Of a DNA stretch of 34,035 nt, positions 10,064 to 16,975 are shown in pieces; the stretch's first letter is position 1; every line of letters starts with the position of its first letter. Origin of the DNA: Bradymonadales bacterium (GTDB lineage Bacteria > Myxococcota_A > UBA9042 > PWKZ01); assembly GCA_003559575.1 (NCBI GenBank), contig PWKZ01000007.1, positions 1 to 34,035 of the forward strand, given 5' to 3'. Below the pieces are notes generated by a model. The model did not search any database, was not told where the DNA came from, and was given only the letters and a program-made list of their open reading frames with translations. A program made the translations under genes and the position numbers.

Positions 10064-11671
10064 ATGGGCTGCTTGCTAGGTTTTGCCGCTCTTTTATTGG
10101 TCGCCTGGTGTGTCGTGCGCGCGGCGCGGACCATCCGCGACTGTCTCTCCAGTCGGTGGCCCTGGTTCGCTTTCGCGCTCCTCGTCGTAATTCAAATCAT
10201 CCTCCACTGTAACACCACGGCGTTCCTGGCCGACATTGCGCCGAGCACCGCGATGGCGGTCAACCCTCACACGCTCCGCTACTCTTACCTCTGGGGAGCG
10301 GTGCTGTCGGTGATGCCGTTCACTCTCGAAGTCTGGCATGTGGCCGTGTTCAACAACGCACTCGGCGTCTTGATGTTGTTCCCCCTGTTCTCCTTTCTCC
10401 TGGGCTTCTGGCGGCATGAGCGCGTCGCGCTCGTCTCCCTGGCCTTCGCCGTCTTTGCCATCACCCCGCTCAAGTTCATCAGCTCCGAAGGGCAGTTTGC
10501 CCTCCTCTTGTTTTGCGCCACGGCCGGCGCCGACAGGCTGCTCTGCTGGTTGGGCTCGGCGCGACGCTCGGATCTCTTTCTGGCGGCGGCTTGCCTGAGC
10601 TGTGCCGCCAACCTGCGGCCCGAAGGGTTCCTGGTGGTCGCGTCCGTCGCGCTGTTGATTTTGTTGAAGCCCGCCCGCCTGAAGATGATGTTCAGGCCGC
10701 TGAACCTCCTCCTGATCGCGCTGCCGGTGTCGCTCGTGGCGCTCGGCCCGTTTGTCGGACTCTTCAGGGAGGCGCTGGGAGGAACCGGGCTGGACTGGTT
10801 TTCGCCGAACCCTTTGCACTACCTGGCGTTTGCCTTCTACTTTTGGCCCGAAGGATTCTTCGCGAGCTCTGTGTATGCCGCCTTCATGTTCGGGCTGACT
10901 CTGATGGTCGCGCGGCGGATGCCGGCGCTGCGCTTACGCCTCTTGCTGCTGGTCCTGATGATAGGGGTGGTGTCCTTTGGTATGGCGCGGCCGACGACGT
11001 ACTCCAACGAGCGCTATCTCGTGACGGCGGTGTTGCTGCAGTGGGTCTTTGTCGGCGCGGTGGTTTACCACGGAGTGGGCCTCCTGTTGCAGAGTTGGAG
11101 CACAAGACGACGGCAGATTGCGCAACTCGTGGTTTGCGCCGTGGGCTTGAGCGCCGCTTTTCTGGCAGAGGCCCGCCTCCTCGACAAGAAATGGGCCCAC
11201 ACGGCGGAGTACACGTTTCTCATCCAAACGCTCGAGAAGTTGCCGGACGGCTCCACGATCCTCGCCGACCTGTTTTGGGAGCGCGAGGCCGGGCTCGAAA
11301 TACATGGCAACTCGCTCTCAATGTTGGTCGACAGGCGCCACGAGTGGCTGGATTTCAAGGATTTGGACAGCCTGGCGGATCTCGAAGAGGCATACTTCTA
11401 TCTCGGTGGAAGCTGTCGCATCAGACAAAGAGATGGGCAGGGCGGATTGCCCTACGAGACCTTCAGTGAGTTTTTCCCAAAATGTCGCGCGGCGCTCGAA
11501 TCGCTCCAAGAGCGGGGCACGATGGAGCTACTGTACGAGACCCGGGCGCCGGGGAGATCTCTGGTGGGCGGCACCAGCACCAGGAAGTCGATTCCGATAG
11601 AATTGTACCACTTCACAGCTGATCAAGAGGACTCAAAGGCGACCGCAGCGCGCGCAGCCGGGGAGAATTGA
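10064..11671 (+). CDS. Polytopic membrane protein, GT-C glycosyltransferase-like
   Basis: 535 aa with many hydrophobic segments and a soluble C-terminal part; overall layout resembles GT-C/PMT-like membrane proteins. No diagnostic motif identified by eye. Confidence 0.6.
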   Translation: MGCLLGFAALLLVAWCVVRAARTIRDCLSSRWPWFAFALLVVIQIILHCNTTAFLADIAPSTAMAVNPHTLRYSYLWGAVLSVMPFTLEVWHVAVFNNALGVLMLFPLFSFLLGFWRHERVALVSLAFAVFAITPLKFISSEGQFALLLFCATAGADRLLCWLGSARRSDLFLAAACLSCAANLRPEGFLVVASVALLILLKPARLKMMFRPLNLLLIALPVSLVALGPFVGLFREALGGTGLDWFSPNPLHYLAFAFYFWPEGFFASSVYAAFMFGLTLMVARRMPALRLRLLLLVLMIGVVSFGMARPTTYSNERYLVTAVLLQWVFVGAVVYHGVGLLLQSWSTRRRQIAQLVVCAVGLSAAFLAEARLLDKKWAHTAEYTFLIQTLEKLPDGSTILADLFWEREAGLEIHGNSLSMLVDRRHEWLDFKDLDSLADLEEAYFYLGGSCRIRQRDGQGGLPYETFSEFFPKCRAALESLQERGTMELLYETRAPGRSLVGGTSTRKSIPIELYHFTADQEDSKATAARAAGEN

Positions 11672-12748
11672 GCGGCGCACCGCCCGCCGCAGCGCGCGGT
11701 AGGAGCGCCCATTCCAGATCTCCAGCAAGGGCTCTCGCAGGGCGTTGCCGAGCTTGGTGTCCATGTAGTTGAGACATGGAATCACGTTGCCCGCAGGATC
11801 GAGAAACAACGAACGCCAAACGAACAAGCACATCCGGCTCATGGAGTGCCGGGCGGTGTACCAGCTGCGCATCTCATCGTCGCCGAGGCGAGGTTTGAGC
11901 ACTAGAAAGCTCCCGTAGCGGCGGCGTAGCGCGGACAGCACGCGCGCGATCTCGGCGGGCGAGTCGCCGAACCGAGTGTCGCCCCGGATATAGGAGCTGA
12001 GCTTCATTCGCGCGCGGAGATTCTCCGGCAGGTGCACGCGGCAATACTCCTGGTGGCGCTCGATCTCGGGATCGGTAATGAACTCGAGATGCTCGATCCG
12101 CACCTGGTCGACACCGATGCGCGCTCCAATCTCAACTACCTCGGCGATGTGGTCGATGTTGTTGCCCGTGAGCACCACGTTCAGCAGCACCCGCGTCTTG
12201 CCCTTGGAGCGGCAGAACAGCTCAATATTGTCTATTACGCGCTCAAAAGTCCCAGTTGTTCGCGTAATGCGCGCATGGACCGCCTCCGGACCGTGCAGAG
12301 AGAAGATCATCTGCTCCGGACCGAGCGCTTTCAAGTCGCGCCCCACCTCGCCGGTAACCGCCAGACCGTTTGAGATCATGCCGAGCGGCAGACCGTGCTT
12401 CTTGACGGCGACGACCAGATCCAGCACATCGTCTCGCACGAACGGTTCGCCGCCACCGAAAAAGAAGGTCGGCCTGAATGGCAGCGTCTGGCGGACGATA
12501 TGTCCGAGCTCGTCGGCGGACAGCTCCTGATGCGCTTGCCGGCGAAACGCTCCGACCTCGCACATCTCGCAGTTCATGTTGCACCGCGAGGTGACGAGTA
12601 GGTTGAGCACCATCGGCGGCCCGGCCCACCCCCCAGGCGAGACGAGATCGCGCGGCAACGTGAGCATATTGGACGCGAGTAGCCGCGGCGGAAACAAGCA
12701 GGTGAAGGTGCGCAGGCAGTCGAGCTGCGATTGCAATGTCGTCGCCAC
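11633..12748 (-). CDS. Radical SAM protein with SPASM/Twitch-like C-terminus (start uncertain: GTG 12748/12754 or ATG 12667)
   Basis: LLVTSRCNMNCEMCEVGAF (CX3CX2C), FFFGGGEPFVRDD; C-terminal CLFVWRSLFLDPAGNVIPCLNYMDTKLGNAL...GCARCGRL. Confidence 0.88.
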   Translation of the reverse strand: MATTLQSQLDCLRTFTCLFPPRLLASNMLTLPRDLVSPGGWAGPPMVLNLLVTSRCNMNCEMCEVGAFRRQAHQELSADELGHIVRQTLPFRPTFFFGGGEPFVRDDVLDLVVAVKKHGLPLGMISNGLAVTGEVGRDLKALGPEQMIFSLHGPEAVHARITRTTGTFERVIDNIELFCRSKGKTRVLLNVVLTGNNIDHIAEVVEIGARIGVDQVRIEHLEFITDPEIERHQEYCRVHLPENLRARMKLSSYIRGDTRFGDSPAEIARVLSALRRRYGSFLVLKPRLGDDEMRSWYTARHSMSRMCLFVWRSLFLDPAGNVIPCLNYMDTKLGNALREPLLEIWNGRSYRALRRAVRRSILPGCARCGRL

Positions 12749-12756
12749 CCCCACTC

Positions 12757-14460
12757 CTATCCTTCCGCCGACGTCGAAGGCGGCGCGACAGCCAGATAAG
12801 GGCCTATCGCCAGCGCGTCGAGCCGGGCCTGCCGCCAAGCGCCGATGGCCTCCTCGGGGCGGCAGACGATGGGCTCCTCGTGCATGTTCAAGCTGGTGTT
12901 GATGAGCGCCGGCAGTCCACTCAAGCGGGTGTATTCCTCGAGAATTCGCGCCAACGCCGGGTGCGCCGCGCGGGTCACTCGCTGCGGACGCGCCGTGGCG
13001 TCCACATGCACCGCTCCCGGCGCCAGTTCGCGCATCCTGGGGGTCACATCGAAGCTTATGGTCATGAACTGGGAAGCGTGCCGCGCCTTGCCGCCGCCGA
13101 TGATACAGGAGTCGAACTCGTCTTCGTGAATGACCGGCGCAAACGGCATGATCGGGTTGCGCTTGAGCTTCCGGTTGAGCCAGTTGATCGTGTCGGGATC
13201 GGTGGCCGGCGCGAGGATCGAGCGATTGCCGAGCGCTCGCGGGCCGCACTCCATGCGCCCGTCGAAGCGCGCCACCGTCTTCCCCTGCGCAAGCAACTTG
13301 GCCACCTCGAGTTCGATGTCGAGCCCACCGCGGAAAGTGACCCCGGCCTCCTCTAGCGCGGCGCGGATCTCGTAATTGGTGAACTCCGGGCCCAAAAACA
13401 CGTCCGGCAGGGGCTCCGGCGGCGATCTCAAGAACGCCTCTGCCCCACCGATTGAAAGTCCTCCGTCACCCATGTGCGGCATCACATAAATACGGTGCAC
13501 CTCCGGCATCGCCGCCAGCCGCTGGTTGAGCTTCACGTTGGCAAACGCGCCCCCGGCCAACGCCACATGATCACACCCGGTGCGCCGTAGCCAATGGCGC
13601 AAGTAGTCGGTGAGCACCTCTTCCAGGTTTTTCTGAAAGGACGAGGCGATTTCTTCGCGCGAAAACTTGGCCAGCGCCGAATACGGCCGGCCTCTCGGCG
13701 ATCGCGGCAGCAGGTGGTTTTGAGTGCTCAACCGACCATTCTCGTGCCAGAGAATGCGGCGCGCCTCCTCGAGCGCCGGGTAGGTATCGTCATGCGCCGC
13801 CAGAGCGTTCACCTTGCCCTCATCGCGCACCGCAGTGTAGCCCAGCAGCTCCGTCAACCGTGAGTAGTAGAGAGTCAGCGCCGAGTAACCGGTCTCTTCG
13901 TGCAACAGCGTGAGCCCCTTGCCACGCTCGCCGACACTGACCGTCACCGCGAGCCCATCGCCGAGACCGTCGGCGGTGAGGACCAGCGTGCGGTCGAACC
14001 CCGAGGTGGCAAAAGCCCCGTAGGCATGGGCCACATGATGATCGACGACGTGTAAGTCGGCCTCGATCCCGAGCGCGCGAAGCTCGCGGGCCAGAACCAA
14101 CCGCGCGGCGGCCGCTTCCGCGGCCAGCGGCAGCCGCAATTTACGGGCGACGGTCTGATAGGTGATGAACGCGCTCAACAGGTAGCGGAATTGACCGTTC
14201 CAACGCCGCAGCGGTTGGTGAGCGCCACGGAACAGCCGGGCCAGGATGTTGGGAGTGATAGCGCTCCCGAGCACCACCGCGTCGACGTCTCGCGGCTCCA
14301 GCGCCGCAATTTTGAGCACCGCCGAAATGGACTCGCGCGGCACGCCGCCCCAGAGTTTGATGCGGTTCAAGCGCTCTTCGTTGACGGCGGCCACGAGTCG
14401 GCCGTCGACCAGGAGGGCGGCGCCGGCGTCCTGGCTGTCACAGATGCCCAGTACGATCAT
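12757..14460 (-). CDS. Carbamoyltransferase, NodU/CmcH family
   Basis: MIVLGICDSQDAGAALLVDGRLVAAVNEERLNRIKLWGGVP, VVDHHVAHAYGAFATSGF, LALAGGAFANVKLNQRL, FDGRMECGPRALGNRSILA, PALINTSLNMHEEPIV. Confidence 0.92.
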   Translation of the reverse strand: MIVLGICDSQDAGAALLVDGRLVAAVNEERLNRIKLWGGVPRESISAVLKIAALEPRDVDAVVLGSAITPNILARLFRGAHQPLRRWNGQFRYLLSAFITYQTVARKLRLPLAAEAAAARLVLARELRALGIEADLHVVDHHVAHAYGAFATSGFDRTLVLTADGLGDGLAVTVSVGERGKGLTLLHEETGYSALTLYYSRLTELLGYTAVRDEGKVNALAAHDDTYPALEEARRILWHENGRLSTQNHLLPRSPRGRPYSALAKFSREEIASSFQKNLEEVLTDYLRHWLRRTGCDHVALAGGAFANVKLNQRLAAMPEVHRIYVMPHMGDGGLSIGGAEAFLRSPPEPLPDVFLGPEFTNYEIRAALEEAGVTFRGGLDIELEVAKLLAQGKTVARFDGRMECGPRALGNRSILAPATDPDTINWLNRKLKRNPIMPFAPVIHEDEFDSCIIGGGKARHASQFMTISFDVTPRMRELAPGAVHVDATARPQRVTRAAHPALARILEEYTRLSGLPALINTSLNMHEEPIVCRPEEAIGAWRQARLDALAIGPYLAVAPPSTSAEG

Positions 14461-15749
14461 GGTGCTCCCGTGTCCCGTTTGTCCCCGCCGCTCGCCATTG
14501 ACTCCTCGACGGCGGCGGCGATCCGATCCATCTCGGCCGAACCAAGCTCCGGTCCCACCGGCAAATAGAGGTTGGACCGCTCGAGCTCGGCGCTGTGAGG
14601 GTACTCCGGTTGCCCGGGGGAGTTCGGCAGCCGCGAGCAGTCCATGAGGTAGCCCGCCGTCGAGTCGACACCGCGGGCGAGCAACCGGCGGCGAAGCGCC
14701 AGGCGGTCGGCAACGCGCACGACCACGTTGGTCCAGAGCGGCTCCGCGTCCGCCACCGGCTGCTGGAGGCTCACCCCCGGGACGTGGCGCAGGCGATCGC
14801 GCAGGCGCAAAGCGTTGCTCAGCCGGCGCTCGTTGGCTCGCTCGAGATCGGCCAGCACCGCCAGACCGGCGCCGGCCTGAGCCGGCCCCATCGGCGCCAT
14901 CATGGCGTCGATATCCAACACCCCGTGATCGAACGCCGCAGGGCGCATTTTGACCAGTGTGTCGACCATCGCCGGCGACAATCCGTCCAAAGCGCGGATT
15001 GCCGGGAAGACACCGTTCGAGAACACCCACGGTCGTGTCGCCACCCAGATGGCGGCGCAGGAGAGGAGTGTGCGCAACACCGCCACCCTCCCGGCGGCAG
15101 GATTGCGCCCGACGACTGCGCGGGCGCGGCGCGCCACCCCGGAGTCGCCGGTGGTGAGCATCCCACCCTTGAGGGTGTTGAGCGCTTTCATGGGGCCAAA
15201 ACTGAACAGCGCCGGAGAGCCTTGCGCGCCGACCCGCCGCCGGCCGCACCGGGCACCCAGCGCTTGCGCGCAGTCCTCGACCAGGACGAGGCCGTGGCGC
15301 CGGGCCAGGGTCTTGAGCGCCCCGAGCGGTGCGGGGTTGCCGTAGAGATGAGTGGCCAACAGGAAGCCCGTCTCGGGAGTCAGCGCGGCCTCAACCGCCG
15401 CCGGATCCAGGTTGAAGGTTTGAGGATCGATGTCCACGAAGCGAGGGATGAGCCCGAGGCCCCGGATCACCCCAACCACCTCGGGGACGTTGTAGGCCGC
15501 CAACACCACACCCTGCCCGCGCTTGGCGCCACACGCCTCGAGAATCGCCGCCAGGGCGACTTTGCCGGATCCGACCGCGACGGCGTGGCGCACTCCGAGC
15601 CAGGTGGCAAACGCCTCTTCAAACCTCGCCACGGTGCGCTCGGCGCTCGATCTCCAGAGGAGGCCGCCGAGCGCGCCGGTCAGTTGCCGCCCGGAAAACC
15701 GAACCGTCCCGCGCGGAATTCGGCGCCGGCTCGTGTTCAACCTCGCCAC
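14457..15749 (-). CDS. DegT/DnrJ/EryC1-family PLP-dependent sugar aminotransferase
   Basis: FEEAFATWLGVRHAVAVGSGKVALAAIL, VEDCAQALGARC, SFGPMKALNTLKGGMLTT (PLP Lys context). 4-nt overlap with the next gene. Confidence 0.88.
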   Translation of the reverse strand: MARLNTSRRRIPRGTVRFSGRQLTGALGGLLWRSSAERTVARFEEAFATWLGVRHAVAVGSGKVALAAILEACGAKRGQGVVLAAYNVPEVVGVIRGLGLIPRFVDIDPQTFNLDPAAVEAALTPETGFLLATHLYGNPAPLGALKTLARRHGLVLVEDCAQALGARCGRRRVGAQGSPALFSFGPMKALNTLKGGMLTTGDSGVARRARAVVGRNPAAGRVAVLRTLLSCAAIWVATRPWVFSNGVFPAIRALDGLSPAMVDTLVKMRPAAFDHGVLDIDAMMAPMGPAQAGAGLAVLADLERANERRLSNALRLRDRLRHVPGVSLQQPVADAEPLWTNVVVRVADRLALRRRLLARGVDSTAGYLMDCSRLPNSPGQPEYPHSAELERSNLYLPVGPELGSAEMDRIAAAVEESMASGGDKRDTGAP

Positions 15750-16975
15750 CGTTTGCGTTCCAGCGCGCCCTGATTTTCAAGCCCGGAACCCAACCCAAAC
15801 CATTTGTCGTAAACGGACAGCGGCAAAAATCCGAGCCGACAAAGCACCCAAATGGGATACTTGACCTTGTTGAGCAGATTGAGGCTGTTGGGATAGTCGG
15901 TGAAGTTGCGGGGCGGGAGCCGCATGTATTCGTCGAACTCGTCGCGCGTGATCCCGAGCCTGTCGATGCACAGACGGATCACGTCCTCGTCTTCGATGAC
16001 GTAGATCTCCTCGAGCGCTTCGAGCGCCGCGCGACGCTCCATCTGGCCGGAGCGCACCAGCGCGGCGTAACTGGTGCGCCGGATGTCAACACCGAACTTG
16101 ATTCGTTGCACATGGGAGATAAGAGCCCAATAGAGATCGTCGAAATAGTGTGCTCCGGGATAGACCCACCCGAAATCGCGCGCCATCATCTCTTCCGCTT
16201 CGCGGCGCACGTAGGGGTAGTTGTACAGTGGCGCCAGCACGCGGATTCCTTTGACGATCAAATAGTAGGCGAGCTCCTTGACTCCGAGGCTGTAACCCGG
16301 CGCCGTAGGCTCCCAGGGGGGGAACTCCACCCGGCCGAAGCGTTTGTGGATCGCCCGCAGATAGTCGCCGTCAAAGTACGCCCAGCACAGCGGCTTCAGC
16401 CCTTCGGTGCGAAACGACTGGCCGAAGAGGATGTGCTTGATCCCTTCCTTGGCGGCGACCCCGTAGAGTGAAGCGCCAATCCCGACGTCGGTCCCCGAGT
16501 TCATCAGAGGAGTTGAGGCCTTGAGTTCCGTGATTTTCAAGTCCTTGGCGAGACGCCAGTCCGAGGTGATTGTCCGTAGCTCGACACCGAGATGTCTGAC
16601 CTGCTTGATCATGTTCTCGCCGCCGACGGGGTTATCAAAGCCGTCGTTGAAGTGCACCGCCAACGGCCTGAGTCCCCACTCCTTCTTGGCCAGATGAAGA
16701 AGAAAAGAGCTGTCCCGTCCCCCGCTCACACCAATCACGCAGTCGTATGGCTTGCCGGCGCCGCCCGTCTTGATCGAGTCGATGAGTTTTGCGAGCGCGC
16801 GGCGGCCTTCGGGGCCTTCATTCGGGTAGGCGCGGCAAAGTTGATCGTGCAGGTGACAATAGAAGCAGACCCCGCTCGAGTCGAAGGTTATCCCAGGGGT
16901 GGAAGTGTCTTGCACACAGCGGACGCAAAGTTGGTAGGTGGGGCTCGTGTGAAACCGCTGACTACTCCTGAACAT
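15737..16975 (-). CDS. N-acetyl sugar amidotransferase (PseA/WbpG-like)
   Basis: LCVRCVQDTSTPGITFDSSGVCFYC Zn-ribbon-like N-terminus, PP-loop GVSGGRDSSFLLHLAKKEWGLRPLAVHFNDGFDN, ELRTITSDW. Confidence 0.88.
   Translation of the reverse strand: MFRSSQRFHTSPTYQLCVRCVQDTSTPGITFDSSGVCFYCHLHDQLCRAYPNEGPEGRRALAKLIDSIKTGGAGKPYDCVIGVSGGRDSSFLLHLAKKEWGLRPLAVHFNDGFDNPVGGENMIKQVRHLGVELRTITSDWRLAKDLKITELKASTPLMNSGTDVGIGASLYGVAAKEGIKHILFGQSFRTEGLKPLCWAYFDGDYLRAIHKRFGRVEFPPWEPTAPGYSLGVKELAYYLIVKGIRVLAPLYNYPYVRREAEEMMARDFGWVYPGAHYFDDLYWALISHVQRIKFGVDIRRTSYAALVRSGQMERRAALEALEEIYVIEDEDVIRLCIDRLGITRDEFDEYMRLPPRNFTDYPNSLNLLNKVKYPIWVLCRLGFLPLSVYDKWFGLGSGLENQGALERKRWRG

Follow-up and report, generated by a model that had tools for sequence, protein, structure and literature searches.

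A three-gene aminotransferase, carbamoyltransferase and radical-SAM core shared by Myxococcota-like bacteria and Omnitrophota, with a putative role in sugar tailoring

The conserved unit of the operon analysed here is a three-gene core, not a four-gene cassette as described earlier, and consists of an aminotransferase (AT), a carbamoyltransferase (CT) and a radical-SAM protein. The core is a compact set that crosses phyla and displays a mechanistic anomaly, namely the replacement of a catalytic His by Gln across an inner clade of the carbamoyltransferases. The description rests on what was observed, namely the genes and their domains, the joint occurrence of AT, CT and radical SAM, their conservation across phyla and the residues of the active sites. 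Regarding function, we lean slightly towards a core that tailors a sugar or cyclitol, by amination, radical oxidation and carbamoylation, for a glycan or a lipid-linked saccharide, with an amidotransferase (AMT) step added in the genome studied here. If ureido or carbamoylated, radically modified sugars are indeed made, the module would add to the glycan chemistry of poorly known, mostly uncultured lineages and illustrate how carbamoyltransferases switch acceptor type.

The window, i.e., the whole stretch of DNA that was analysed (34,035 nucleotides), is one entire contig of an assembly with 306 contigs that is 92% complete. As the preliminary description reported, its minus strand carries four genes, and Pfam and NCBIfam matches agree with the enzyme classes proposed for them: an N-acetyl-sugar-amidotransferase-like AMT of the WbpG/WbuX/NASAT family (15737-16975, ATG start, 412 aa), a DegT/DnrJ/EryC1/StrS aminotransferase (14457-15749, GTG start, 430 aa), a NodU/TobZ-class (class III) carbamoyltransferase (12757-14460, ATG start, 567 aa) and a radical-SAM protein with a one-auxiliary-cluster, twitch-like C-terminus of the truncated SPASM type (11633-12754, 373 aa). 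The overlaps of 13 nt between AMT and AT (15737-15749) and of 4 nt between AT and CT (14457-14460) are likewise present. The gap before the radical-SAM gene had been given as about 8 nt, which holds with a start at GTG 12748; however, the radical-SAM homologues have a common N-terminal stretch (S-Q ... F ... L-F-P), coded upstream of ATG 12667, which fits an upstream start, so that GTG 12754 is most likely the start codon and the gap would be 2 nt. The operon is flanked by housekeeping genes (glmM, tRNA-Leu, an M3 peptidase, an FGGY kinase and a PLP-dependent decarboxylase-like protein), and a scan for promoters and terminators gave a result near the chance level.

Within the class, 52 genomes were sampled and seven carriers were found, namely the window genome (G000), G004, G019, G026, G031, G033 and G039. 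CT orthologues occur in these seven genomes at 59-64% identity, the next best match being at 42%, and AT orthologues (41-51% identity) occur in the identical seven, with profile scores of 516-684 compared with at most 329 elsewhere; two identical sets of seven in 52 would arise by chance about once in 130 million if they were independent, a figure that ignores shared ancestry. Radical-SAM orthologues (about 43-51% identity) are present in six of the seven, the exception being G039, where the AT-CT pair lies at a contig end. The three genes stand together in G000, G031 and G026 (in the last, an additional ORF separates AT from CT), while AT and CT are adjacent in G019, G004 and G039 and AT and radical SAM in G033; overall, AT and CT are neighbours in five of the seven carriers. 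The radical-SAM gene of G019 is located about 2.7 kb from AT, and the core genes of G004 and G033 are split across contigs. Claims of absence are limited by assembly completeness and contig breaks. The class orthologues form one supported group in the trees of both AT (95/95) and radical SAM (100/99), but the deep position of the Omnitrophota sequences is less well supported in each.

In two carriers (G026, G033), the radical-SAM gene is closely followed by carB, which encodes the large subunit of carbamoyl-phosphate synthase and was identified from the start of its sequence; as a housekeeping gene, carB could be there by coincidence. At two carrier loci (L035, 9918-13946; L086, 10574-14424), a HEAT-repeat protein and carB directly follow the radical-SAM gene. 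A second, partial radical-SAM copy (41% identity) is found at a contig start of one carrier (L097, G033:C284:3-698).

The earlier idea of four genes forming one conserved cassette is not borne out, as AMT was found in the operon only in the window genome. The preliminary description had regarded occurrence in this genome alone as grounds for abandoning the cassette; within the class, the full set of four is indeed confined to this genome, whereas the three-gene core is not. AMT scores 192.9 bits against TIGR03573 (WbuX), just below the cutoff of 203.2, and would at best be a divergent NASAT (TIGR03573) member. It carries the PP-loop SGGRDSS and the tetracysteine C17xxC20...GVC37xxC40, in agreement with the NASAT motifs SGGXDS and CxxCXn[GN]xCxxC (PMC10607449). 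Distant relatives are present elsewhere in the class (34-37% identity in G046 and G039), and in the phylum sample AMT was detected at E<=1e-40 in 11 of 379 genomes. Seven of the ten other phylum AMTs adjoin HisH and HisF, whereas neither was found beside the window AMT, and no second HisF was found in this 92% complete genome, whose single HisF locus lies next to a HisA-like frame; the dedicated HisH and HisF partners of the WbpG-HisH-HisF acetamidino system were therefore not recovered. Because AMT lies beside the core only in G000, and because of this single HisF locus against the HisH/HisF neighbours of the other AMTs, it is most plausibly an addition specific to this lineage that, being present in one carrier only, says little about core function. 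In the window genome, the WbpG/WbuX-type enzyme added upstream may convert an N-acyl group to an amidine. In another genome, a locus (L187, G080:C106, 1303-10378) encodes a CT and an amidotransferase lacking HisH/HisF, along with a polytopic membrane protein and two proteins that bear Cys motifs of the radical-SAM type, and is apparently an independent assembly resembling the window operon. Elsewhere in the window genome (L043, G000:C212, 5756-7753), a class-II glutamine amidotransferase domain lies in the same frame as a PP-loop region of the WbuX type.

A polytopic membrane protein with about 11 predicted TM segments (10064-11671, plus strand) converges on the operon and shares 39 bp with the 3' end of the radical-SAM gene. 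Pfam gives no match to this protein, even with a threshold of E=1, its tentative GT-C-like identity derives from topology and one profile-profile match (probability 96), and a single-sequence AlphaFold model, with a pLDDT of 43.8, was unusable. The suggestion that this protein works with the cassette is not supported: a homologue was sought in the other six carriers and is absent from them, and on this conservation test the protein was rejected as a cassette member.

Conversely, the suggested direction of sugar or glycan tailoring gains support from Omnitrophota, where copies of the core lie within glycosyltransferase clusters. Searching public genomes with the radical-SAM alignment retrieved two Omnitrophota records (32-36% identity), and 18 of 285 genomes in an Omnitrophota sample gave strong radical-SAM matches; a plasmid search returned generic matches alone (24-26%). 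One Omnitrophota locus (L168) has all three core genes, accompanied by one GT2 and two GT4 proteins, a methyltransferase and three proteins of the PMT_2 type, of which two exceed the Pfam cutoff; similar clusters hold CT and radical SAM (L165, L166) or radical SAM and AT (L104). Besides GT2 and GT4, these clusters taken as a group encode B12-type radical-SAM proteins, a methyltransferase and several polytopic proteins that match PMT_2. In the CT tree, the sequences of L165, L166, L168 and L172 join the seven CTs of the class in a group supported at 97/97, and the in-class paralogues fall outside. On the strength of these clusters, the product would most likely join a surface glycan or a lipid-linked saccharide. 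Against this reading, neither the window nor most class carriers have a glycosyltransferase of a recognised family next to the core, and no NDP-sugar enzyme is adjacent to it. Three of the Omnitrophota clusters (L165, 6421-7191; L166, 6527-7309; L168, 10898-11683) also encode a conserved protein of 256-261 aa with one TM segment, between CT and a PMT-type protein, for which no Pfam match was obtained in the two tested.

The two enzymes that accompany CT may act on a common scaffold. AT matches PF01041 (214 bits) as a DegT sugar aminotransferase, its candidate PLP lysine, K188, is invariant in the seven orthologues, and the enzyme would aminate a keto-sugar or cyclitol. The radical-SAM protein matches PF04055 (78.4 bits) and PF13186 (48.1 bits) and combines the CxxxCxxC motif (C58/C62/C65) with the C-terminal auxiliary-cluster Cys (C309-X17-C327-X39-C367-X2-C370) expected of a twitch or SPASM protein. 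These four C-terminal Cys occur in all 31 aligned relatives, in a few of which the middle gap contains one more Cys. The seven-Cys motif of a full SPASM domain, with two auxiliary clusters, is not present despite the PF13186 match, so that of the earlier radical SAM/SPASM assignment the radical-SAM part stands, while the SPASM part becomes a one-cluster, twitch-type Cys pattern. This pattern is consistent with one four-Cys auxiliary cluster of the twitch type like that of BtrN, as judged against a residue spacing that we take to be that of BtrN. BtrN itself has one four-Cys auxiliary cluster (PMC9012708). Like BtrN with BtrS and DesII with DesI, the enzyme may oxidise or rearrange, by radical chemistry, the scaffold on which AT acts. 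In the AlphaFold model (pLDDT 84.8), the nearest folds are SkfB, SuiB, DesII and BlsE (TM ~0.6), a likeness that, in a predicted structure, gives family-level and not substrate-level information: the sugar/nucleoside enzymes DesII and BlsE count for the sugar reading, and the peptide-modifying enzymes to which these modest similarities also point count against it. A defence system was considered and set aside, the radical-SAM domain having given merely weak viperin-type matches.

The same features would also suit a diffusible aminocyclitol-like natural product instead of a glycan, made by a TobZ-like CT, a BtrS-like AT and a BtrN-like oxidation as in aminoglycosides: among the solved relatives of CT, TobZ is the best match (E 5.7e-60), 2-deoxy-scyllo-inosose aminotransferases are among the AT relatives, and the twitch-type Cys pattern is like that of BtrN. 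Yet, in the loci that were read, the neighbours of the core include no recognised cyclitol synthase or exporter, and the Omnitrophota context is rich in glycosyltransferases, so that this product appears improbable.

CT shows both domains of its family above the cutoffs (PF02543, 100.9 bits, and PF16861, 172.6 bits; N-terminal Kae1-like and C-terminal YrdC-like) and, as a member of this class, would add a carbamoyl group to the scaffold from ATP and carbamoyl phosphate. Both His and both Asp of the iron site are kept in all aligned members (H141, H145, D164, D332; the iron ligands of GdmN are described in PMC9633730). Gln10 aligns with the His of the TobZ FHD motif in a loop that reads D-S-Q-D, and DSQD with Gln is found in all seven class CTs and all three Omnitrophota inner-clade CTs (10/10), while the nearest outgroups (L172, L039, L040, L041) keep the His (DNHD). 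GdmN uses His27 as the general base that serves the acceptor hydroxyl, and its H27N variant is inactive (PMC9633730); His27 is equated here with the TobZ FHD His through the residues named in that paper's text, not by alignment. CT lacks the general-base His of GdmN-type class III O-carbamoyltransferases, and its loss suggests unusual chemistry. One possible explanation, put forward tentatively, is N-carbamoylation, whereby CT would act on the amine made by AT and yield a ureido sugar, with no need of a base for a hydroxyl and hence with Gln in place of His. The intact iron-ligand positions, the His of the outgroups, the inactivity of H27N and the 4-nt overlap and frequent adjacency of CT and AT argue for it, as does the NodU-like enzyme StdF, which carbamoylates a lysine amine (PMC13174530, preprint). 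However, the His is also missing from the base loop of other uncharacterised NodU-type clades (HEDTNAN, NFSNDA), so its loss is not unique, and another residue may act as the base. The fuller picture of a ureido (N-carbamoyl) sugar that also undergoes a BtrN-like radical-SAM step and is common to Myxococcota-like bacteria and Omnitrophota is doubtful as a whole.

Outside the window, G000 has nine NodU-type carbamoyltransferase matches in its 3.9-Mb assembly. A second recurrent gene set in related genomes (L045, G000:C197, 2248-7923; L044, G010:C76; L142, G080:C95) comprises a QueC-like PP-loop protein, a small protein, a class-V aminotransferase, a B12-type radical-SAM protein and a NodU-type CT with the base loop HED[TS]NAN, with variants in L142.

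Carbamoylated bacteriohopanepolyols exist, and squalene-hopene-cyclase-type domains are present in three of the seven carriers, which raised the biosynthesis of a carbamoylated composite hopanoid as a further destination for the carbamoyl group. The cyclase search largely refuted it, the domain being missing in G000, G004, G019 and G031 (92-96% complete), i.e., in four of the seven carriers, as well as in the two Omnitrophota genomes tested, and this reading is now very improbable.

The enzyme families of the operon are already known, and a literature search found no paper describing the combination of AT, CT and radical SAM; what is new is the inner clade of CTs with DSQD in place of the general-base His and the one-cluster twitch pattern of the radical-SAM protein. 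In comparison with known systems, AMT has the PP-loop SGGxDS and the tetracysteine motif in common with the WbpG/WbuX (NASAT) acetamidino-sugar pathway but is without adjoining HisH and HisF. Legionaminic/pseudaminic acid or O-antigen loci share with the operon a DegT aminotransferase and a WbpG-type enzyme, although the other sugar-pathway genes expected there were not recognised nearby. CT has both Pfam domains and the iron ligands in common with TobZ and GdmN (NodU/CmcH family), but the base-loop His (GdmN H27) is Gln throughout its inner clade, and its 567 aa leave no room for a C-terminal extension of the GdmN type. Lastly, the BtrS/BtrN and DesI/DesII pairs resemble the core in that a DegT aminotransferase is encoded with a radical-SAM enzyme, BtrN through the pattern of its four-Cys auxiliary cluster and DesII as one of the top fold matches of the radical-SAM model; identity to these systems is low (about 15-18% in fold alignments), and the core set adds to them a carbamoyltransferase.
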